Positions 8,741-21,534 of a DNA stretch of 64,000 nt are shown piece by piece. The stretch spans positions 62,001 to 126,000 of the forward strand of contig JAJZQX010000009.1 in NCBI GenBank assembly GCA_021806645.1, in the 5' to 3' direction. This DNA is from Myxococcales bacterium (GTDB taxonomy: Bacteria > Myxococcota > Myxococcia > Myxococcales > Anaeromyxobacteraceae). Each line of letters opens with the position of its first letter. Position 1 is the first letter of the stretch. The notes below the pieces were generated by a model that saw only the letters and a list, made by a program, of their open reading frames with translations, ran no database searches and was not told where the DNA came from. Position numbers and translations under genes: made by a program.

Positions 8741-9886
<1,146 letters not shown>

Positions 9887-12800
9887 TCACCACTCGAAGG
9901 ATTCGTCGGCGTCGATGTCCCGGACCAGGCCGCCGGAGGACGGGTCGGTGCGGAAGCCGAAGCGCTTCAGGTACTCGGGCTGGAAGTAGCCGGTCTCGAC
10001 CGCGGAGACCCCGCGGGAGCGCAGCCGCCGGAAGAAGTCGCGCATCAGCCCGTCGGCTATCCCCTTGCTGCGGTTCTTGCGGGCGACCACCAGCTTCTCC
10101 ATGTGGACGCGCCAGGCGGACACCGGGCGGTAGAAGAGGCCGGCGATGACCGACTCCCTGGAGTCGAGCGCCAGCAGGAACTCGTGCTCGGTGGAGAAGG
10201 CCACCTGCAGGTTGGACTCGTGGAAGAGGCTGAGCAGGCGCGCCACCTCTCGCGGTGAGACCGGCCCGCGCAGCGAGTAGCGGCTGCCGTCGCTGGCGTC
10301 CTGCGCCACCACCACCTCGGCGGTGAAGTGGTCGCCGTGCGGCATGGAGATGAGGGCCACCTGCTCGGCGGGGCCGAGGTAGCGATAGGTCATGCGGGCG
10401 AGACCGTGGTCCTCGGCCTCGGTCGGCTTGACGGCGGACCTCAAGGCCGCCACCTGCTCGGCCAGGTCGAGCGCGCCGGCCGGCAGCGCCCGCGCCCGGT
10501 GCATGAGCCGGTCGAGCGCGGCACCCAGCTCGGGCCTGGCGCCGGCGAAGACGGTCTGCCGGAAGAACCGGACGCGCGTGTCGGGCCACTGCGCCTCGAG
10601 CTCGCCGAGCCGGTAGGTGCCCCACTGCTCGCCGAGGTGCTTCGACTGCGCTTCCGGCGTGGCGTGCGGGTTGACCTCCAGCCAGCGCTTGAAGCGGCGG
10701 ACGGCGAAGAAGAGCCGGAGCGGCGTCGGCCCTTCGGTCCGCAGCCGGTCGAGGAAGGAGGAGACGGCGATGGCCCTCTTGCCGCCGGCGGCCTCCTCCA
10801 GCACCCGGATGGCCCGCTCCGCGCCGAGCGCCTCCACCACGGCCGCCAGCAGCAGCTGCTCGGTGACCTTGCCGCGCAGCTCGGGGAGCGGCTCCTCGAC
10901 CCGGTCGAGGAAGCTGGCCTGGAAGCGATCGAGCAGCTCGTCGAGCGAGTCGCAGGCCGAGCGGTCGGCGATCGAAACCAGCCGCGCCCCGGTCTGGTAG
11001 TCGTGCGACGGCACTATGAAGGCGGACGGGGAGGGCAGGCGCAGGGCCAGGCGGCGGCCGGCCCGGTCCCAGAAGCGGACGTGCAGCTCAAGCGCCGTGG
11101 AGGCCACGAAGGGCCAGAGCAGCTCGAGCCGCTTACCCTCGCCCTGGCGGAGCAGGCGCGCCACCTGGCGCTCCACGTCGTTCCCTGGGATGAACTCCTC
11201 GGTGAAGACTCCCCACTCGCCGAAGTAGCCGGCGAACTGCTCCACCAGCGGCGGCGGGGCCCCGGCGGCCAGCAGCCAGTTCACCTCGTCGCGCAGCTGC
11301 CCGAAGGAGAGCTCCTCGGCCACGTTGATGGCCATGTCGAAGGTCTCGCGAGAGCGGGTGCGGATGGAGAGGCGGTAGACCGCCTTGCCGTGCTGTCGCC
11401 CGAGCAGGCTCACGGTGGCGCCGCCGGGCGGGATGTCGGCCAGCGAGAGGAGCACGCCGCGCCCGAGCAGGAAGACCGAGGCGCGCACCACGGTGGTGTC
11501 GGAGAGCGCCTGCAGCAGCATCTGGCTGGCCTCCTGCGTGACCGAGGGCTCGAAGACCAGCACGTCGCTCCAGCCGTACTCGTGGCCGGTCTGGGGATCG
11601 ATGGCGAGCCGGAGGTTGGGGCCGATCCAGTTGGAGAAGCCGCGGCGCAGCCGGTCGAGCTCCTCGCCGGCGCGGGCGCAGATGCCGGCGTCCTCGTGGA
11701 GCGTCAGGCGCGCCAGCGGCACACGCACACGAGCGAAGTATGCGGGGTGGGCGATGGCGGTGGCGGTGAGGAGCCGCATCACGCCGACGAGCAACTTCCG
11801 GCTGGACGGGTCGTGGAGCGGCTCGTTGGCGCGGTCGGAGGCGAGGTACTCCAGGAGCCGCAGCACCTGCGCGTCGGAGAGGCCGCGCTCGCCGAGGTCG
11901 GCCAGATCCTCGTCGCGCAGCGCCATGGCCTCCATCCGGTCGAGGAAGCTGCCCAGCGTCTCCAGCGTCAGGGCCGGATCCTCGTTGGGCAGCAGGACGC
12001 GGAAGGCGCGGCGCCGGACATCCGCGTCGGGCGCGTCGGCGGCGCGCCGGAGCAGGGCTCGGCTCAAGCGGGCCTGCTCCGGAGAGGCAGCGGTCATGCC
12101 GCGCTGCAGGTGGGCGATGGCGCGCCTCGCCTCCGGACGTTCGGCCCGGAGCAGCTCGGCGGCCGCGTGGATGGAGAGGAAGCTGACCTCGGGCCGGTCC
12201 ACGAGATCGAGCAGGGCCGGCAACCGCTCCGGCGGCGGGCCGTGCCAGTTCCGCGGGTCGATCCGGTACTCGCCGCCGCCCTTGCGCCGCTTGGCGGCCA
12301 GGGCCAGGAAGGCCTCGTCGCCGAGGAACCGGCGCAGCGCCTCGTTGCCCAGCCAGAGAGCTGGACGCGAGAGCAGGATGCCGAGGTCGATGACCGTCCC
12401 CTCCGAGGCGTAGGCGAGGTCGCCCAGGCGGAACGAGCCGGGCGCCGCCACGTCGGGGCCGACCGCCAGCGCGCGGTCACCGGCACGGAGCACCCCTTCC
12501 TGGAGGGAGACCTCGTGCTGCAGAGCCCCGATCTCGCGCAGCACCCAGTTGGGAACGCGCAGGAACCACCCGTCGACGGCCAGCGCCAGGTGCTTCTGCT
12601 CGTACATCTTGTCGATCAGCTCCTTCCACGACTGCCCCACGGCCTCGCGCTTGAAGGTGTGCTTCTGGGTCAGCTCGCCGTGCTCGGCGTCGAGCGCCCG
12701 CGGCAGCACCTGGAAGGTCACCACGCGCTCGAAGGGGGCCAGGAACCGGTTGGCGCTGGCCACCAGCGAGGAGATGAGGTCGCGCAGCCGCTCCGGCGGC

Positions 12801-14542
12801 AGCTCGCGCAGGTGCGGCTGCTGCTGGTAGTTCGGCCAGACCAGCAGGGTGTTGTAGTCGCGGTGATCTCCGACCAGGAAGGCCTGTCCGATGGCCTCGA
12901 AGTCGCGGAAGAGGTTCTCGACGCGGGCCGGGGCGATGGTCTGCCCGGAGCGGTTCTTGTAGATCTCCTTCTTCCGTCCGACGATCCGGTAATGGCCGTC
13001 GTCCACGCTCACCAGGTCGCCGGTGTGGAACCAGCCGTCCGGTTGGTGCGCGCCGGCCACCTCGGGCCCCCCGTCGAGGTAGCCGGGCGAGACGTAGATG
13101 CCACGGATCAGCAGCTCGCCGTCCTCCGCCCGTCGGCACTCGATGCCCGGGAGCGGGACCCCGATGGACCCGTCCACGTAACCGCCAGGCGGGGTCATGG
13201 TGACGCCGCCGGTGGCCTCGGTCATCCCGTAGCCGGAGCAGAGCTCGACGCCGGCCTCGTGGAAGTTCTTGAAGATGGTGGGGTCGAGGTAGCCGGCCGC
13301 CGAGAGGCCATGGCGCAACCGCGTGCCGGTGATGACGCGCAGGTGGCCGGCGGTCTCCTCCTCGTCCTCACCAGCGGCCTCCCACGCCGCCGCGTCCTGC
13401 AGCTCGATCCACTTCTTGGGGACGGAGATGAAGACGGTCGGCTTCACGCTGCGGAAGTCCTCCAGGAGCGAACTCTGCGCGGTGGAGCGCGCGAAGGTGT
13501 AGGTGGCGCCCCACCAGAGGGTGCCCACCAGCTCCAGCCACCGGCCGAAGGTGTGGTAGAGCGGCAGGTAGCAGAGGAAGACGTCGCCCTCGCCCACCCG
13601 GGGCAGCGCGAAGCCGCGGCAGAGCCGCTTCGAGACCAGGTTCTCGTGCGTGAAGACGATGGCCTTGGGCTTGCCGGTGGTGCCCGAGGTGTACATCGCC
13701 GTGGCCACGTCGGTGACCTTGACCCGGGCCGCGCGCGCCGCGCGCAGCGGCTCGTCGAAGCCCGCGCCCTGCCCGATCATCTGGTCGAGCGACAGCAGCC
13801 CGTTGCGCTCGGCGCAGGAGGAGTCGAAGACCACCAGGGCCTTGAGGTCCGGCAGCCCCGCCAGCGAAGGAAGCACCTTGGCGACCTGCTCCTCGTCCGA
13901 GACCAGCAGCACCTGCGCCCTGGAGTGCCTCAGCATGTAGACCACCTGCTCGGCCACGGCGTTGGCCGGGAGCGGGAAGTCCACGAAGCCGTTGGTGAGG
14001 CAGGAGAGATCGCAGAGCGCCGCCTCCAGGCCGTTCTCCGAGAGGATGGCCACGCGCGTCTCCGGCTCGTCGCCGACGACGGCCAGCAGGCCGCGGGCGA
14101 TGGCGCGGGTGCGGCGCGCCACCTCGGCCACGGTCAGGTCGGTGGCGTCCGGGCCGATGGTCCGGATGGCCACCACCTTCGGGTCGGTCTCCTCGCGCGA
14201 GCGGAGCAGTTCCCCAAGCGTGAAGTTGGCGTGGCGGAGGAGCGGGAGCAGGAGCCGCAACCACGGGTCGATGCGTGGCTCGGACAGGGTCTCGGTGAAG
14301 CCGCGGCGCCGGACGCCGTCCAGCAGCGCGATCAGGGCGTGGCGCGCCCCCGGCCGGGTCGGCTCCGGCCCGAGGCGCTGGACCAGCGCGCCGACCAGGG
14401 GTTCGACCTCGGCGAGGTCGCCAGGGGTGACGGAGCGGAGCGCTTCGCAGGTCGCCTCTTCGAGGGGGCGGTCGACCGCTGTGGCGGCCGACCAGCGCTC
14501 CGCCAGGCGCGTGAATGGGGACAGGATGGTGGCCTCGACCAT
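9887..14542 (-). CDS. Acyl-CoA synthetase / helical / kinase-like / GNAT fusion protein (1551 aa)
   Basis: Residues about 100-650 are a complete AMP-forming long-chain acyl-CoA ligase: P-loop TSGTTGKPK 285-293, GYGMTEATG 437-445, WFHTGDL 504-510, GRKKEIYKNRSGQ 522-534 and a C-terminal lysine segment near 627. Residues about 755-970 are Arg/Leu-rich helices of HEAT-repeat appearance. Residues about 970-1330 show strands resembling a kinase or aminoglycoside-phosphotransferase fold (FTEEFIPG hinge at 1113-1120) without an HxD catalytic motif. Residues about 1380-1551 form a GNAT acetyltransferase with acyl-CoA loop RSKGIAD and YLKRFGF. It heads the operon with homocitrate synthase and an exporter. 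Middle domains are my inference; substrate unknown. Confidence 0.85.
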   Translation of the reverse strand: MVEATILSPFTRLAERWSAATAVDRPLEEATCEALRSVTPGDLAEVEPLVGALVQRLGPEPTRPGARHALIALLDGVRRRGFTETLSEPRIDPWLRLLLPLLRHANFTLGELLRSREETDPKVVAIRTIGPDATDLTVAEVARRTRAIARGLLAVVGDEPETRVAILSENGLEAALCDLSCLTNGFVDFPLPANAVAEQVVYMLRHSRAQVLLVSDEEQVAKVLPSLAGLPDLKALVVFDSSCAERNGLLSLDQMIGQGAGFDEPLRAARAARVKVTDVATAMYTSGTTGKPKAIVFTHENLVSKRLCRGFALPRVGEGDVFLCYLPLYHTFGRWLELVGTLWWGATYTFARSTAQSSLLEDFRSVKPTVFISVPKKWIELQDAAAWEAAGEDEEETAGHLRVITGTRLRHGLSAAGYLDPTIFKNFHEAGVELCSGYGMTEATGGVTMTPPGGYVDGSIGVPLPGIECRRAEDGELLIRGIYVSPGYLDGGPEVAGAHQPDGWFHTGDLVSVDDGHYRIVGRKKEIYKNRSGQTIAPARVENLFRDFEAIGQAFLVGDHRDYNTLLVWPNYQQQPHLRELPPERLRDLISSLVASANRFLAPFERVVTFQVLPRALDAEHGELTQKHTFKREAVGQSWKELIDKMYEQKHLALAVDGWFLRVPNWVLREIGALQHEVSLQEGVLRAGDRALAVGPDVAAPGSFRLGDLAYASEGTVIDLGILLSRPALWLGNEALRRFLGDEAFLALAAKRRKGGGEYRIDPRNWHGPPPERLPALLDLVDRPEVSFLSIHAAAELLRAERPEARRAIAHLQRGMTAASPEQARLSRALLRRAADAPDADVRRRAFRVLLPNEDPALTLETLGSFLDRMEAMALRDEDLADLGERGLSDAQVLRLLEYLASDRANEPLHDPSSRKLLVGVMRLLTATAIAHPAYFARVRVPLARLTLHEDAGICARAGEELDRLRRGFSNWIGPNLRLAIDPQTGHEYGWSDVLVFEPSVTQEASQMLLQALSDTTVVRASVFLLGRGVLLSLADIPPGGATVSLLGRQHGKAVYRLSIRTRSRETFDMAINVAEELSFGQLRDEVNWLLAAGAPPPLVEQFAGYFGEWGVFTEEFIPGNDVERQVARLLRQGEGKRLELLWPFVASTALELHVRFWDRAGRRLALRLPSPSAFIVPSHDYQTGARLVSIADRSACDSLDELLDRFQASFLDRVEEPLPELRGKVTEQLLLAAVVEALGAERAIRVLEEAAGGKRAIAVSSFLDRLRTEGPTPLRLFFAVRRFKRWLEVNPHATPEAQSKHLGEQWGTYRLGELEAQWPDTRVRFFRQTVFAGARPELGAALDRLMHRARALPAGALDLAEQVAALRSAVKPTEAEDHGLARMTYRYLGPAEQVALISMPHGDHFTAEVVVAQDASDGSRYSLRGPVSPREVARLLSLFHESNLQVAFSTEHEFLLALDSRESVIAGLFYRPVSAWRVHMEKLVVARKNRSKGIADGLMRDFFRRLRSRGVSAVETGYFQPEYLKRFGFRTDPSSGGLVRDIDADESFEW

Positions 14543-14743
14543 TCGCAGGACCTCGCCGACCGATGCCGAAGCATCGAGATAACCACGGGCGCCGGGCGTT
14601 GTCGACGCGCGACGAACTCCCGTCTCGCGCCGGAATCGCGGGCCCCGTCGGTGCTCGACGGTTCCTGGAAGCCGCTGGCCATGACCAGGTCGCCTTCCTG
14701 GTCGATCCCGCAGCGCCGGGGATCTCGACCAGGGCGGGGGTCC

Positions 14744-15379
14744 TCAACGCTGGTCGACGGCGCGGAACCCGAGACGCACGGCGCCCCAGTGCATGCCGCG
14801 GACGAAGACGGGGACCGAGAGGTCCACCATGGTCTCGCCGGTGTCCCGCTGGTACCGCTGGACGAGGAAGGGGGCCGCGCTCCTGGCCGCCGCGAGCCCG
14901 GTCTTGTCGTTGAAGATGCGCTTGGTCCGGTTGTTGACCAGGTCGTTGGCCAGGTTGCCGGTCAGCGGCTGGGAGTAGCGGAGGTTGTGGGTGGGGAGAT
15001 AGCCGTTCCGGTCGACCAGGACGGCGAAGACCAGGTTCCCCGAGCGGGTCAGCACGGCCTCCTCGATTCCCTGGATGTCCCGGTCCGAAAGCCGATCCCA
15101 GTCGGTGGTGAACTTGGGCGGGTCGGTGTTGGCGGTGGGATAGTAGAGGAAGGAGAAGAGCCGCTCCTCGCTCACCTCCTTGGCGGCTAGCCACCCCTCC
15201 ATGGTCTCGGAGACCCGGCGGGCGAAGTCCTGGGCGACGCCGAACATCTCCCTCTCCTGCGCGTTGAGCGCGTCGAGCTGCGCCGTGGTGGGCTTGGGCT
15301 GGGCCACGCCCGGGGTGGGCGCCAGCACGGCGACGGCGAGAAGGAACGACGCGAACAACGTGGTGGTGGTCCTGGTCAT
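14744..15379 (-). CDS. Secreted sensor-domain protein (single Cache-like domain, no membrane anchor)
   Basis: 211 residues. A signal peptide (about 1-26, ending V-A-Q) is followed by one extracytoplasmic ligand-binding domain and nothing else. The segments GYLPTHNLRYSQPLTG, NRTKRIFND and TGETMVDLSVPV are shared with the next upstream protein and with the periplasmic part of many deltaproteobacterial chemoreceptors. There is no second membrane segment, HAMP or kinase. It could be a soluble periplasmic ligand-binding partner of the membrane-bound paralogue encoded 13 bp upstream. Ligand unknown. Confidence 0.75.
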   Translation of the reverse strand: MTRTTTTLFASFLLAVAVLAPTPGVAQPKPTTAQLDALNAQEREMFGVAQDFARRVSETMEGWLAAKEVSEERLFSFLYYPTANTDPPKFTTDWDRLSDRDIQGIEEAVLTRSGNLVFAVLVDRNGYLPTHNLRYSQPLTGNLANDLVNNRTKRIFNDKTGLAAARSAAPFLVQRYQRDTGETMVDLSVPVFVRGMHWGAVRLGFRAVDQR

Positions 15380-15392
15380 GGTCGTGTCTCCT

Positions 15393-16310
15393 CTAGCCGC
15401 CGAGCCGGCTCATGGCCGCCTTCATGCTGACGCGTAGCCGCTCCACCGTCCTGGTGAGCTGCCCGATCTCGTCGGTGGACTGGGACTTGATGGGCGTGTC
15501 GAGCCCTTCGCCCATGCTGATGGCGCTGGCGGCGGCGGTCAGGTCCGCCACCGGTCGCATCGCCCGCTCCACCACCACGTAGATGGTGAGGATGGTGATG
15601 AGCGCGAAGGCGGCGAAGATGACGGTCAGCGTCAGGATGAGGGTCCGCTGCTTGGCGGCGATCCGCTCCATCGAGACGCCGACCCGGAAGGCGCCCCAGT
15701 GCTTGCCCTTCACGAAGATGGGGCTCGAGACGTCCCACATCCGCTCGCCCGTGTCGCGCGGGTAGTCCTGCAGGAAGCCCGGCTGAGTGTTCTTGGCGGC
15801 GGCCAGGCCGACCGGATCGTTGAAGACCCGCTTGGTCCGGTTGCCGGCCAGGTCCTTCTCGGGGATGCCGGTGAGCGGTTGCTGGTACCTGGTGTTGTGG
15901 GTGGGCAGGTAGCCGTTGACGTCGACGCCCACCGCGAAGAGGAAGTCCCCGCTATCGAGGAACTTGTCCTGGAAGACCAGCACCGCCCGGTCGCAGAAGG
16001 CGTCGAAGCGGGTGTGGAACTTGGGCTTGTCGCCCCAGGCCCAGCCCTTGATCTCGACGTAGGAGCGGTCGAAGACGTCGTTGACCGTCAGCAGGCCGTC
16101 GTCGATGGCGTTGTCGAAGGTGTCCCCGAATTGCCGCGAGCCGAGCGCCGCCGCGAGCCGCGCCTTCTCGAGAGTCGAAGCCTCCATCTGCTGGGTCCGC
16201 GTGACGGTGATGATGGCCGCCGCGCCGGTGGTGAGCACCAGCAGCAGGATGGCGAGCGTCACCGAGATCTTGAGGCTGAGCCGGCTCCGAATCGTGGTGA
16301 TGAGTGACAT
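15393..16310 (-). CDS. Membrane sensor with Cache-like domain and HAMP, no output domain
   Basis: 305 residues: membrane segment 1 (about 15-36), extracytoplasmic domain 37-220 containing GYLPTHNTRY (133-142) and TGERMWDVSSPI (187-198), membrane segment 2 (about 223-247), then a HAMP domain (248-300) and stop. It looks like a chemoreceptor or histidine kinase that ends just after HAMP. Since no transmitter follows, it probably acts through a partner, most obviously the roadblock proteins or kinase encoded upstream in the same direction. It is paralogous to the secreted protein downstream. Start ATG chosen 21 bp after the preceding gene. Confidence 0.8.
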   Translation of the reverse strand: MSLITTIRSRLSLKISVTLAILLLVLTTGAAAIITVTRTQQMEASTLEKARLAAALGSRQFGDTFDNAIDDGLLTVNDVFDRSYVEIKGWAWGDKPKFHTRFDAFCDRAVLVFQDKFLDSGDFLFAVGVDVNGYLPTHNTRYQQPLTGIPEKDLAGNRTKRVFNDPVGLAAAKNTQPGFLQDYPRDTGERMWDVSSPIFVKGKHWGAFRVGVSMERIAAKQRTLILTLTVIFAAFALITILTIYVVVERAMRPVADLTAAASAISMGEGLDTPIKSQSTDEIGQLTRTVERLRVSMKAAMSRLGG

Positions 16311-17529: not shown

Positions 17530-19440
17530 TCAAGGGTTCCGCTCCTCTGGCCAGGGCGGAAGACCAGCGTTCCGGCGGCAGGTGTCGATGACCACACGCG
17601 CTTCTGGCGTCGGCCAGCCCGGCGGCGCGGCGACCTGCTCGGCCGGCGGTCGGGCCTCCGGCCATGTGGTTTCGGCGCTCGCGGCCCAGGCCTGCCAGGA
17701 GGTGATGGTGGGGCGACCGATCGCGGCGGCCAGCGCCAGCATGTTCGAGCCGATCACGTCGATGACCCCAGGGCGGCCGCCGGAGCGGTGGGCGAGGAGC
17801 AACAGGGCATCGGCGGACAGGTGTATGGGTGGCGCCCCGGAGGCCCGGCTGGCGAGGAGCCAGGCGCGGAGGTAGTGGGCCACCTGATCGGCGTCAAGAG
17901 GCGGAACCGGGAGTTCGACGCAGCTGTCCGGCGTCGCCGGGGTGGTCTCGGAGGAGAGCCGGCGACCCAGCCCCGGAGCCCCGGCCACGACCAGCTTGAA
18001 GGTGCGTGACCAGTGCGCCGCCGACGCCAGCGTCGCGAGGTCGGGCGCGAGCCCCGGTCCACCGTCCAGCCCGTCCAGGATCAGGAGTGGAACTGGCCGG
18101 CCGCGCTCCTCGCCGAGCCGGTGAAGCAGGCCGTCGAGCCGGGTCGCCCCCTCGTCGGGGACACCGGCGGCGCGGCAGATCCGCTGCACCGCGGTCCGGC
18201 CGTCATCGCGGCTGGAGCCGTCCGCGAGCAGCACCAGCCTCGCGGCGGACGCGGAGACGTCGCCGGCCAGTTGCCGGAGCAGCGTCGACCGGCCGCTGCC
18301 CGCCGGGCCCGTGAGCGCGACCAGCGCGGCGCCGGGTCCTTCGACCAGCGACCGGAGCTGGCGGCGGACGCCGTCGAGCGGGGCGGCCTGGAAGGGCGCC
18401 GCGGCCGGATCGAAGGGGCCGAAGGGTGCCTGCGTGAACTTGAGGCGTCCAGCCAGCGCCGGCGGTGCGGGGCGGGCCGCAGGCGGTCTGGGGGGCGGCG
18501 GTCGGGCGGGCGGAGCCGCCATGCTCGCCGGTGGGTTCGCGGCGTGTTCGGCGGTGGCCAGCTCCTGCAGAACGCGGCGCCCTTCCCACATCAGCACCTG
18601 GGCGGACGGCTGGCGGTCAGTCGGGTTCTTGGCCAGCGCGCGCATCACCATCGAAGCGCTGGAGTCGGGGAGCCCGTGGACCAGCTCGCGAGGATCCGGA
18701 ATCGCCGCGGTGAGATGGGCGCGTTCGACCTCGGCCAGGTCGGCGCCGACGAAGGGCGGCCGCCCGGTGAGCAGGTGGAAGTAGGTGGCGCCGAGCGAGT
18801 AGATGTCGGAGGCCTGGTTGGCCACGGCGCCGCGCCAGATCTCCGGCGCCGTGTAGAACGGCGTGCCGGCGCGCACGCTGGCGTTGCCGACGGGGACGCC
18901 GGCCGAACCGTGGGCCATGCCGAAGTCGCCCAGCTTGGTCATGCCACCCGGGCCGATCAGCAGGTTGCCCGGCTTCACGTCGCGGTGGACCACGCCGGCG
19001 ACGTGTGCGGCGTGGAGCGCCGAGGCCGCCTGGACCAGGATGTCGGTCGCCGTCTCGGGCGGCAGCCGCCCTTCCCTGGCGATGAGCGCCTCGGTCGACT
19101 GGCCCGCCACGTACTCCATGGCGATGTAGCAGTAGTCCCCCTGCTTGGCCGCACCGTAGATCTGGATCACCCGCGGGTCGTTGATGCGGGCCACCAGCCT
19201 CGCCTCGCCCAGGAACCACTGGACCGGGTCCTGCCCGCGAGTCTCGGCGCTGGCCCAGGCCAGCACCTTGATGGCGGTGGGGCGGAGCAGCGCTTCGTCT
19301 TGCGCCAGGTAGACGACCCCCATCCGGCCCCGCCCGAGGACCCTCTCGAGCCGGTAATTGCCCAGCTTGACGCCGGCCAGCCTGGAGAGATCCAGGGGCC
19401 CTTGGCCTTTGGGGTCGAGGGTGACGGGCGCGTTCGGCAT
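17530..19440 (-). CDS. Serine/threonine protein kinase fused to an AAA/ExeA-like ATPase
   Basis: 636 residues. Residues 28-290 are a Hanks-type kinase with all key motifs: glycine loop GRGRMG 36-41, Lys 58, HRDVKPGN 152-159, DFG 172-174 and APE 198-200. A Pro/Ala-rich linker (300-330) leads to a P-loop ATPase: Walker A GPAGSGRST 378-386 and Walker B LLILDGLD 452-459, resembling ExeA/GspA or STAND-like modules. No membrane segment, so the kinase is soluble, unlike PASTA kinases. The gene is 10 bp downstream of the DUF4388 gene. The ATPase could switch or localise the kinase; that is inference. Confidence 0.88.
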   Translation of the reverse strand: MPNAPVTLDPKGQGPLDLSRLAGVKLGNYRLERVLGRGRMGVVYLAQDEALLRPTAIKVLAWASAETRGQDPVQWFLGEARLVARINDPRVIQIYGAAKQGDYCYIAMEYVAGQSTEALIAREGRLPPETATDILVQAASALHAAHVAGVVHRDVKPGNLLIGPGGMTKLGDFGMAHGSAGVPVGNASVRAGTPFYTAPEIWRGAVANQASDIYSLGATYFHLLTGRPPFVGADLAEVERAHLTAAIPDPRELVHGLPDSSASMVMRALAKNPTDRQPSAQVLMWEGRRVLQELATAEHAANPPASMAAPPARPPPPRPPAARPAPPALAGRLKFTQAPFGPFDPAAAPFQAAPLDGVRRQLRSLVEGPGAALVALTGPAGSGRSTLLRQLAGDVSASAARLVLLADGSSRDDGRTAVQRICRAAGVPDEGATRLDGLLHRLGEERGRPVPLLILDGLDGGPGLAPDLATLASAAHWSRTFKLVVAGAPGLGRRLSSETTPATPDSCVELPVPPLDADQVAHYLRAWLLASRASGAPPIHLSADALLLLAHRSGGRPGVIDVIGSNMLALAAAIGRPTITSWQAWAASAETTWPEARPPAEQVAAPPGWPTPEARVVIDTCRRNAGLPPWPEERNP

Positions 19441-19449
19441 CTTCGCGGG

Positions 19450-21534
19450 TCAGGTTCCGGGGCTGGGTACGGGACCGCGGGAGGACTCGTCACGCTCCCT
19501 GAACAGCTCCAGCAGCAGGTGCTGGGCGTCAACCTCGATGCTGGCGTCGCCACCGGGCGGCGTCTCCTCCTCCCGGGTGAAGGCGAACTCGCCGTCGCTC
19601 CAGTCGATCAGCTCACGCAGCACCTGCTCGATCTGCTGCCGGCCGGCCTCGCGCACCGCGGCGGCATCGGCCGCCCCGTGCTGGACCAGCCGGTCGGCCA
19701 GGCCGGCATCGACCAGCGTGCCCTCGCGGGCCGGGCCGACCGAGGCCAGGGCCTCGGCGGTGAGCTTGCCGTTGCGGACCAGCAACTCCCCGAGGCTGGG
19801 CGTCGAGGGGGCGGCGGCGCCGGTGATCTTCCCCTTGCGGAAGCGGAACGCCCCCATGCCGCCATGCGAGCTGCAGACGAGCAGGCCGCTTCGCCCCGCG
19901 GTGCGCAGGAACTCGACCAGGTCGGCGAGAGAGAAGACGCTGAGCCGCCCGGAGAACATCGAGTCGAGCCCGGAGAAGGCGGCGCGGGCACCCTGCGGGA
20001 GCAGGGCCGAGTCGCCCACCTCCGGCGCCGTGGCCGTGCCGGAGGTGGTTCTCGCGGCGGGCCCGGGTGCCGGCAAGCCGCCGGCGGCCTTCAGCGCGGT
20101 CGTGGTGCAGCTCAGCCCGAGGGTCACGAGCGCCTTGTCGGAAGGCCCGAGCGGCTGCTTGAGCAGCCACTCGAAGACCTCACGGGCGGGGGCGTAGCGC
20201 CCCAGCTTGACCAGCAGCCAGGCCAGGGCTTCCCGCGCCTGGAAGAAGCGCGGCGAGGCATTGGCGATCTTCTCCAGGGCCTTCAGGTTCTGGCCGGAGG
20301 GGGGGGCGAGGTGGATGCGCAGGAACTCGCCGGCGTCGGCCAGCGAGACCCGCCGCTGGGCCACGGCCTCCAGGAGCATGCGGAGCCGATCGGCGGCGGG
20401 GGAGCGGATGTCCCCCAGCGCCGCCGTGGCCGTGGCCGGGTCCCCCGCCATCACCGCCCGGCTGGCGAGAAAGACCTGCGGCTCGTCCCACGTCGGATCG
20501 GCCTCGCGGGCCTTAACGGCCGCGGCGACGCAGGCGGCTTCATCCCGGGTGGAGAGGATGCGCGCCTCGGCGAGCCAGGACTGGCCGAGGCCCCACTGGT
20601 CGGCCACGCGCTCGAAGCGGCCGCGGGCCTCCGCCAGCCAGCTCAGGGCCTTGTTCTGGTCGCCGCCGCGGGCCAGCAACTCGGCCGCCAGCAACTGGCT
20701 GACGCCCCGCGCCTCGACGTCGAGCTGGCGTGAGAGCGCCAGCGTGTCGCGGACGTGGTCCCTCGCCGCCTCGGCGCCGCCGCTCTGCAGGGCGGCCCGG
20801 GCCGACCAGTAGTGGGCCAGCCACCGGATCGAGCTGTTGGGCTGCGCCTGGCTGGCCAGCTCGGACAAGGTGCGGGCGCCGCCCATCGGGTCACCGGCCA
20901 TGATGCTGCCGATCCCCTCGAGCAGACGCTGCATGGCCGCCTGCAGGGCCGGAGCGGGGAGCGGCTCGCTGCCAGGCACCGGGTCCAGGTCGGCGCCCGC
21001 GTCCACGATGGCCTGCTGGAAGGCGGCGGCGTGGGTCAGGTGGCTGCGGACCAGCGCCCGGCGCAGCGAGCCCCACGGGTCGTCGATGGCCATCAGGCTG
21101 GCGGCGGGAGCGGGTCGAGCCGGGTCAGGGCGAGTGGGTGACGGGGGCTCCACGGCCGGGAGCGAGCCGGTGAGGCCCGACCGCGCCGGGGTCGCCCCGG
21201 TGGCCGGCCGCACCTCGCCTAGCTGCCACGCGTCCAGCGTCTCGATGGTGCGGGCGAGCCGCTTGACCGGGTCCACGTCCACGAAGAGGAAGAGGTCGGC
21301 GCGGACCGCGGTGAGCGTGGTCCGGTGCGGCCCCTTCATCTCGAGCCGGAGCAGCGCTTCGAAGCCGAGGGCCGCACCGGCGGCGCCCAGCTCGGTTACG
21401 GCGACGGCCACCGCGGCCGCCTCGTCGGCGGCAGCGGGGAGTTCCTTGACCGTGGCATGGACCTGGCCGCGCCGATCGGCCAGCAGGGCGCCGCGGACCT
21501 CCACCAGTTCGCCCAGCCGGGGAGGAAGGCTCAT
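19450..21534 (-). CDS. TPR protein with C-terminal DUF4388 (PATAN) domain
   Basis: 694 residues. The first about 100 residues have alternating strands and helices of roadblock-like character; a Pro-rich spacer follows; about 180-500 are helical pairs with TPR-like spacing (for example W-L-A-E-A-R-G-R-F-E-R and R-Y-A-P-A-R-E-V-F-E-W-L-L). Residues 527-694 are a DUF4388/PATAN domain (FSGRLSVFSLADLVEFLRTA, then G-A-F-R-F-R-K-G-K-I). DUF4388 is common in myxobacterial and geobacterial signalling proteins as an interaction module. It is the first gene of the minus-strand signalling locus, opposite the tRNA-Arg. Confidence 0.8.
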   Translation of the reverse strand: MSLPPRLGELVEVRGALLADRRGQVHATVKELPAAADEAAAVAVAVTELGAAGAALGFEALLRLEMKGPHRTTLTAVRADLFLFVDVDPVKRLARTIETLDAWQLGEVRPATGATPARSGLTGSLPAVEPPSPTRPDPARPAPAASLMAIDDPWGSLRRALVRSHLTHAAAFQQAIVDAGADLDPVPGSEPLPAPALQAAMQRLLEGIGSIMAGDPMGGARTLSELASQAQPNSSIRWLAHYWSARAALQSGGAEAARDHVRDTLALSRQLDVEARGVSQLLAAELLARGGDQNKALSWLAEARGRFERVADQWGLGQSWLAEARILSTRDEAACVAAAVKAREADPTWDEPQVFLASRAVMAGDPATATAALGDIRSPAADRLRMLLEAVAQRRVSLADAGEFLRIHLAPPSGQNLKALEKIANASPRFFQAREALAWLLVKLGRYAPAREVFEWLLKQPLGPSDKALVTLGLSCTTTALKAAGGLPAPGPAARTTSGTATAPEVGDSALLPQGARAAFSGLDSMFSGRLSVFSLADLVEFLRTAGRSGLLVCSSHGGMGAFRFRKGKITGAAAPSTPSLGELLVRNGKLTAEALASVGPAREGTLVDAGLADRLVQHGAADAAAVREAGRQQIEQVLRELIDWSDGEFAFTREEETPPGGDASIEVDAQHLLLELFRERDESSRGPVPSPGT

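Follow-up and report, generated by a model that had tools for sequence, protein, structure and literature searches.

The window, a stretch of 64,000 nucleotides, comes from a 4.1 Mb genome whose named relatives are Anaeromyxobacter species and MAGs. Its minus strand carries, at 9887-14542, a gene for a protein of 1551 residues that we refer to as FUS (all FUS features given below lie on the minus strand). The frame is free of stops from 14542 to 9887, and most orthologues retain the ATG start. On the plus strand, the frame across 9887-14542 is broken by an internal stop, and the longest open reading frame (ORF) there that overlaps FUS, at 10328-15190, is of the antisense kind usual in high-GC DNA. 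GC content by codon position in the minus-strand frame is 0.73/0.47/0.957, as expected in a high-GC genome, and thus the frame is strongly coding. A scan of the FUS operon for sigma-70 promoters and terminators returned nothing and is uninformative at such a GC content. FUS consists of an AMP-forming ligase, a small beta domain, a helical repeat, a degenerate kinase fold, a helical linker and a GNAT domain, with approximately 105 residues lacking a Pfam match ahead of the ligase fold (14228-14542). A sequence-only reading had proposed a single 1551-residue protein of the order ligase, helical region, kinase-like stretch and GNAT. The open frame, the codon GC pattern and the orthologues confirm the former, and Pfam, AlphaFold2 and Foldseek agree on the latter. 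More than 45 genomes from three phyla carry this same architecture, which rules out a chance fusion or an assembly artefact. The same reading knew of no characterised protein of this order, and the open-access literature we searched describes none.

The ANL (AMP-forming) acyl-CoA ligase domain spans residues 106-655 (12578-14227). Pfam assigns AMP-binding (PF00501) to residues 120-489 (E = 2.6e-61) and AMP-binding_C_3 (PF23562) to residues 532-650 (E = 5.7e-12), and the ANL motifs A3 (TSGTTGxPKG), A5 (GxxTE), A7 (TGD) and A8 (GRKK/DRKK) are all intact. Within the motif columns compared (283-533), residues T285, S286, G287, T289, K293, T441, E442, T507, D509 and R523 are present in 51/51 family members. 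The domain resembles the long-chain ligases FadD11 and PRK06187, with which it has both its N- and C-domain families in common, rather than Acs. It falls far under every listed NCBIfam cut-off, and its relatives in its own genome are 33-39% identical.

In contrast to the other motifs, A10 departs from the ANL pattern. The position of the canonical A10 lysine (residue 629) is occupied by threonine in 36 and serine in 15 of the 51 members. FUS reads GELTPKGTxxR in this region, whereas in ordinary long-chain ligases, which also lack the 900 further residues of FUS, the sequence is GELTPTLKxKR or something close to it, with lysine. Three long-chain ligases of the window's genome likewise carry lysine at the canonical place. 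Two residues upstream of position 629, Lys627 (12662-12664) is invariant in the 51-member alignment and may substitute for the canonical lysine. The variant may be shared with the feruloyl-CoA synthetase family NF009232; no strong homologue was found in the genomes searched for this comparison. Thus, the "complete" acyl-CoA ligase of the sequence-only reading stands for A3, A5, A7 and A8 and falls short at A10, where the variant makes it less certain that this is an ordinary ligase with nothing missing. Mutation of the canonical A10 lysine is reported to impair adenylation in several ANL enzymes (PMC11255334).

An AlphaFold2 model of residues 645-1551, built with 39 sequences, reached a mean pLDDT of 88.8 and a pTM of 0.76. 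By this model and by a separate one of residues 980-1235, residues 660-1380 are folded and not disordered. The model comprises a small beta-rich domain with an invariant P..W..RE pattern in the alignment (residues 652-720; 12383-12589), an all-helical repeat region of approximately 12 helices (residues 721-974; 11621-12382), a degenerate protein-kinase fold (residues 980-1216; 10895-11605) and a helical linker (residues 1217-1390; 10373-10894). One member of the family (L073:2293-7176) has an insertion of approximately 65 residues in the helical region.

Foldseek with the whole 645-1551 model returned GNAT proteins and kinases. Residues 980-1235 predicted alone gave a pLDDT of 91.4 and a pTM of 0.83, and the best 50 PDB matches of this model are all kinases, as befits a bilobal kinase fold. 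The Rio2 match has an E-value of 3.5e-7, PRPK/Bud32 is matched with a TM of approximately 0.5, and E-values for the Bud32/PRPK and RIO2 kinases run from 3.5e-7 to 2e-5 with a probability of 1.00. This part of approximately 250 residues lacks a Pfam match in any of 38 members. Unlike those kinases, FUS has no VAIK lysine: the column is N/T/H/I/A, and the lysine is absent in 39/39 sequences. At the remaining catalytic positions, placed like the VAIK column by motif alignment of the 39 sequences, the HRD Asp column holds D in 14 and E in 9, the loop Asn column holds A or N, and D occupies the DFG-like place in 21. On this alignment the VAIK Lys is lost and the other three residues (HRD Asp, loop Asn and DFG Asp) lack conservation, which bears out the earlier suggestion of a kinase-type fold devoid of catalytic residues. 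A further difference from Bud32/PRPK and RIO2 is an extra PxHDYxxG loop (residues 1178-1185; 10988-11011), located between the catalytic-loop and DFG-like positions. Its P, H, D, Y and G are invariant in 39/39 sequences, and our search for a known counterpart of the motif found none.

The C-terminal residues 1391-1543 (9914-10372) form the GNAT domain that the sequence-only reading had predicted, identified here by profile, Foldseek and Pfam. Whole FUS scores 18.4 bits against Pfam GNAT, just under the cut-off of 20.7, while the isolated domain passes at 21.9 bits; PF00583 is matched in 20/20 FUS orthologues (best 1.9e-10). With a profile of 39 sequences, the best PDB match of the GNAT domain is the catalytic domain of the histone acetyltransferase GCN5 (KAT2) from Tetrahymena (E = 5e-9). 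By Foldseek the domain has a GNAT fold, with YhbS as the top match, GCN5 and SACOL1063 further down and small GNATs making up most of the others. The matches listed include the protein acetyltransferases PatZ, Ard1 and NatD; likeness of GNAT folds is without power to tell protein from small-molecule acceptors. The acyl-CoA pyrophosphate loop, RSKGIA (residues 1491-1496; 10055-10072), follows the pattern Q/R-x-x-G-x-G/A, with R in 38/39 and G in 33/39 sequences and the last position often Ser. Glu1482 on strand beta4 (10097-10099) is present in 39/39 aligned sequences and is a candidate general base; four further Ignavibacteria beyond that alignment have Asp at this position. FUS differs from GCN5 in being bacterial, in lacking a bromodomain and in the register of the catalytic Glu, since it is His1480, not Glu1482 two residues on, that faces the GCN5 catalytic Glu in the HMMER alignment. 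In the Marinimicrobia proteins (L088-L093) the pyrophosphate loop is degraded, with G replaced by A or S (RGIALS, QKIALS), and Glu1482 is kept.

The degraded Marinimicrobia loop, the lost kinase residues and the absence of the canonical A10 lysine from 51/51 members could indicate that the ligase is adenylation-deficient and binds ligands as a scaffold. FUS would then serve citrate synthase as metabolite sensor or assembly platform, with acyl transfer non-essential. The reported adenylation defect of A10 lysine mutants (PMC11255334) fits this explanation, and type I and II bacterial acetyltransferases are described as also bearing an inactive ligase-like domain (PMC11254643). However, the residues of the ATP loop, A5, A7 and A8 are essentially invariant, the invariant Lys627 could take over from the missing lysine, and the GNAT Glu1482 is retained throughout the 39-sequence alignment. 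We consider a non-catalytic scaffold quite unlikely.

Full-length FUS architecture, at approximately 1540-1630 residues, occurs in Anaeromyxobacteraceae, Ignavibacteria and Marinimicrobia, so the window's protein is not unique in its architecture. Among 99 relatives, the C-terminal 900 residues turn up in each of the 23 remaining members of the family and, elsewhere in the order, in a single genome; the upstream ligase is also present wherever the contig permits. Plasmid homologues of these 900 residues were not found. A scan of 84,980 species with two peptide patterns, a design of limited sensitivity, added Melioribacteraceae/Ignavibacteria and Marinimicrobia proteins of 26-31% identity over the full query (Ignavibacteria also ~33%). 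A profile search of 197 genomes of the class containing Ignavibacteria identified 23 FUS carriers, 8 of them very divergent. On sequence grounds FUS is a conserved, undescribed cross-phylum family and not a Myxococcota oddity. The very divergent full-length members L177-L184 (class of G195), at ~1510-1560 residues, differ in their GNAT active-site residues and have no citrate synthase neighbour; cytochrome c or LpxC genes adjoin some of them.

Fifteen bases past the FUS stop codon lies a homocitrate synthase gene (8741-9871, minus strand). Its product scores 454.2 bits against TIGR02146 (cut-off 413.55) and matches the Thermus homocitrate synthase 3a9i with an E-value of 6.7e-150. The gene is directly downstream of FUS on the same strand in 21/22 Myxococcota loci (the window and 20 others), with gaps of 6-74 nt. 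At L066:12754-13884 the homocitrate synthase match comes in two pieces with query residues 230-293 unmatched, and this copy is possibly disrupted or divergent. We rejected, as a simple explanation, the idea that the enzyme is a Re-citrate synthase replacing a missing citrate synthase, given a classical citrate synthase in the window genome and 15 family relatives; its Thermus-type sequence also counters that idea. A place in LysW-type lysine synthesis is unsupported, with no LysX above cut-off and dapA present in 5/5 family genomes. The open-access literature held nothing on an Anaeromyxobacter homocitrate synthase or Re-citrate synthase.

Citrate synthase is the recurring neighbour in Ignavibacteria, where the gene immediately upstream of FUS encodes a eukaryote-type form of this enzyme (PF00285, E = 4e-96). 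Of 20 Ignavibacteria loci with 5 kb or more of sequence ahead of FUS, 16 have it upstream on the FUS strand; in 13 of those 16 it is the immediate neighbour of FUS, at a gap of 76-406 nt. Because the Ignavibacteria loci have in common a larger syntenic block, hpnCDE-CS-FUS-pyrG-purN-purH-mreB, they are not mutually independent. The differing gene orders in Myxococcota are stronger evidence of linkage: four Anaeromyxobacteraceae-type loci have the order citrate synthase-FUS-homocitrate synthase, with citrate synthase upstream at 176-454 nt. Citrate synthase is divergent from FUS in one further genome (L086) and downstream of it in another (L073). Around the Marinimicrobia genes (L088-L093) citrate synthase is not nearby, and genes for HD-GYP proteins and for cytochrome oxidase assembly adjoin FUS. 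Among the divergent L177-L184 and the loci without citrate synthase, no other neighbour recurs beyond close pairs. The reactions of citrate synthase and homocitrate synthase are alike in joining acetyl-CoA to a 2-oxo acid with release of CoA, and the two enzymes have no sequence similarity to each other. FUS is thus linked to a reaction type and not to one paralogue.

Wherever a citrate synthase was detected in a FUS genome, it is the eukaryote-type enzyme. In the survey of 197 genomes this holds for 23/23 FUS carriers, while ~75 of the 188 genomes with a match have the other type; we calculate a probability of ~1e-6 for such a co-occurrence by chance, before correction for relatedness. Additionally, Anaeromyxobacteraceae citrate synthases share 67-71% identity with the enzyme linked to FUS in Ignavibacteria (L083:6463-7779 against L063, L064, L070 and L071), and for most other eukaryote-type citrate synthases of that Ignavibacteria class the figure is 46-55%, a difference that suggests transfer of citrate synthase between phyla.

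We tentatively propose, at somewhat less than even confidence, that FUS is an acyl-CoA-dependent protein (lysine) acyltransferase controlling the enzymes that condense acetyl-CoA with 2-oxo acids. Citrate synthase would be its target, joined in Anaeromyxobacteraceae by homocitrate synthase. The ANL domain would bind ATP and an organic acid and either make acyl-CoA for the GNAT domain or serve as an acyl- or nucleotide-sensing input. The helical region and pseudokinase would dock the target and report a nucleotide or metabolite state, and the C-terminal Gcn5-like GNAT would transfer the acyl group. The architecture, the folds, the largely conserved active-site motifs and the linkage to the synthase genes are observations, whereas a protein acceptor, the choice of targets, the sensing role and any direction of control are inferred. 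FUS fits a controller acting by acylation because a GNAT with the protein acetyltransferase GCN5 as its best profile match is fused to an ATP- and acid-binding ligase and a nucleotide-type fold, and because its gene keeps company with those of the two synthases. Counting against the proposal are the offset register relative to the GCN5 Glu, the inability of GNAT fold likeness to identify the acceptor, the Marinimicrobia proteins with their degraded loop and distant citrate synthase genes, and the non-independence of the Ignavibacteria loci. There are parallels for such control, as lysine acetylation is reported to alter the activity of E. coli citrate synthase (PMC11254643) and AcuA, a GNAT, to control the AMP-forming ligase AcsA (PMC11255334). 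In broader terms, FUS probably senses or controls acetyl-CoA entry into central metabolism.

The sequence-only reading had suggested channelling from ligase to GNAT, with an amine, protein or small molecule as the acceptor. In a small-molecule form of that model, the ligase would activate an acid and the GNAT would pass the acyl group to an amine to give an N-acyl amino acid or amide. An acyl-CoA-forming and an acyl-CoA-using fold on one chain, with A3, A5, A7 and A8 intact, agree with such a route. Separate FadD-type ligase and GNAT pairs that acylate amines exist: in mycobactin synthesis the fatty-acid-activating ligase MbtM (FadD33) and the GNAT MbtK are separate proteins encoded in a siderophore cluster. 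FUS, in contrast, is one chain with no siderophore cluster nearby. No biosynthetic cluster of any kind surrounds FUS in any lineage examined, and the variant A10 also counts against this route, which we regard as unlikely. Given that genes for citrate and homocitrate synthase are what recurs beside FUS, we favour protein acylation and metabolic control over a natural-product amide.

A third possibility is that FUS controls itself in cis, the GNAT acylating its own ligase at Lys627 of A10 and thereby switching its activity while the pseudokinase reports the energy state. FUS would then amount to AcsA, AcuA and AcuB of Bacillus on one chain, supplying acyl-CoA to citrate and homocitrate synthase. 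In that system an AMP-forming ligase and a GNAT cooperate as in FUS: AcuA is reported to acetylate the A10 lysine of AcsA and to form a stable complex with it (PMC11255334), and AcuB is described as the energy-charge sensor (PMC13121692). Lys627 is invariant, and every FUS unites ligase and GNAT in a single polypeptide. However, AcsA and AcuA are separate proteins, the ligase is of acetyl-CoA synthetase type with the canonical A10 lysine, the system has no pseudokinase, and no citrate synthase linkage is described for it in the portions of these sources on which we draw. In FUS the canonical position is Thr/Ser, the ligase is nearer FadD11 and PRK06187 than Acs and is not an obvious acetyl-CoA source, and adjacency to the synthase genes is explained less directly. 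We judge self-control in cis, too, to be improbable.

Protein acylation by FUS invites comparison with Pat and PatZ/YfiQ, which are also large multidomain proteins with a GNAT fused to an acyl-CoA synthetase-like domain and regulate metabolism by acetylating proteins; the Foldseek matches of FUS include PatZ. The type I and II enzymes are described as having an inactive NDP-forming synthetase domain, and this is the only ligase-like layout among bacterial lysine acetyltransferases in the part of the classification available to us (PMC11254643). FUS, in contrast, has an AMP-forming ANL domain (PF00501/PF23562) and not an NDP-forming one, and adds the beta domain, helical repeat and pseudokinase. 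By analogy, FUS may work like Pat despite standing outside the NDP-forming group.

In its most specific form, the proposal is that the AMP-forming ligase and pseudokinase gate a Gcn5-like GNAT that acylates citrate and homocitrate synthase, and that PxHDYxxG might be a nucleotide-binding site or have some unusual activity other than that of a kinase. We hold this full version to be rather unlikely. If true, it would define an undescribed class of bacterial acyltransferase and mean that Myxococcota, Ignavibacteria and Marinimicrobia have in common a point at which acetyl-CoA entry is controlled post-translationally. Action of FUS on the adjoining synthases would be a direct case of enzymatic control of TCA-cycle entry; the open-access literature searched describes no enzymatic acyltransferase dedicated to citrate synthase. 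FUS is also a bacterial pseudokinase fused to acyl-transfer machinery, and its carriers include culturable Anaeromyxobacter strains.

Elsewhere in the window, adjacent genes at 14744-15379 and 15393-16310 share a periplasmic sensor-like domain (NGYLPTHN...FNDxxGLAAA), one of them with HAMP, and are adjoined by a gene of 255 amino acids without Pfam matches. The arrangement recurs in a single close relative (L035) and is absent from the other family loci tested. Further along, a Ser/Thr kinase fused to an AAA/STAND-like ATPase (17530-19440) is followed by a DUF4388 protein (19450-21534).
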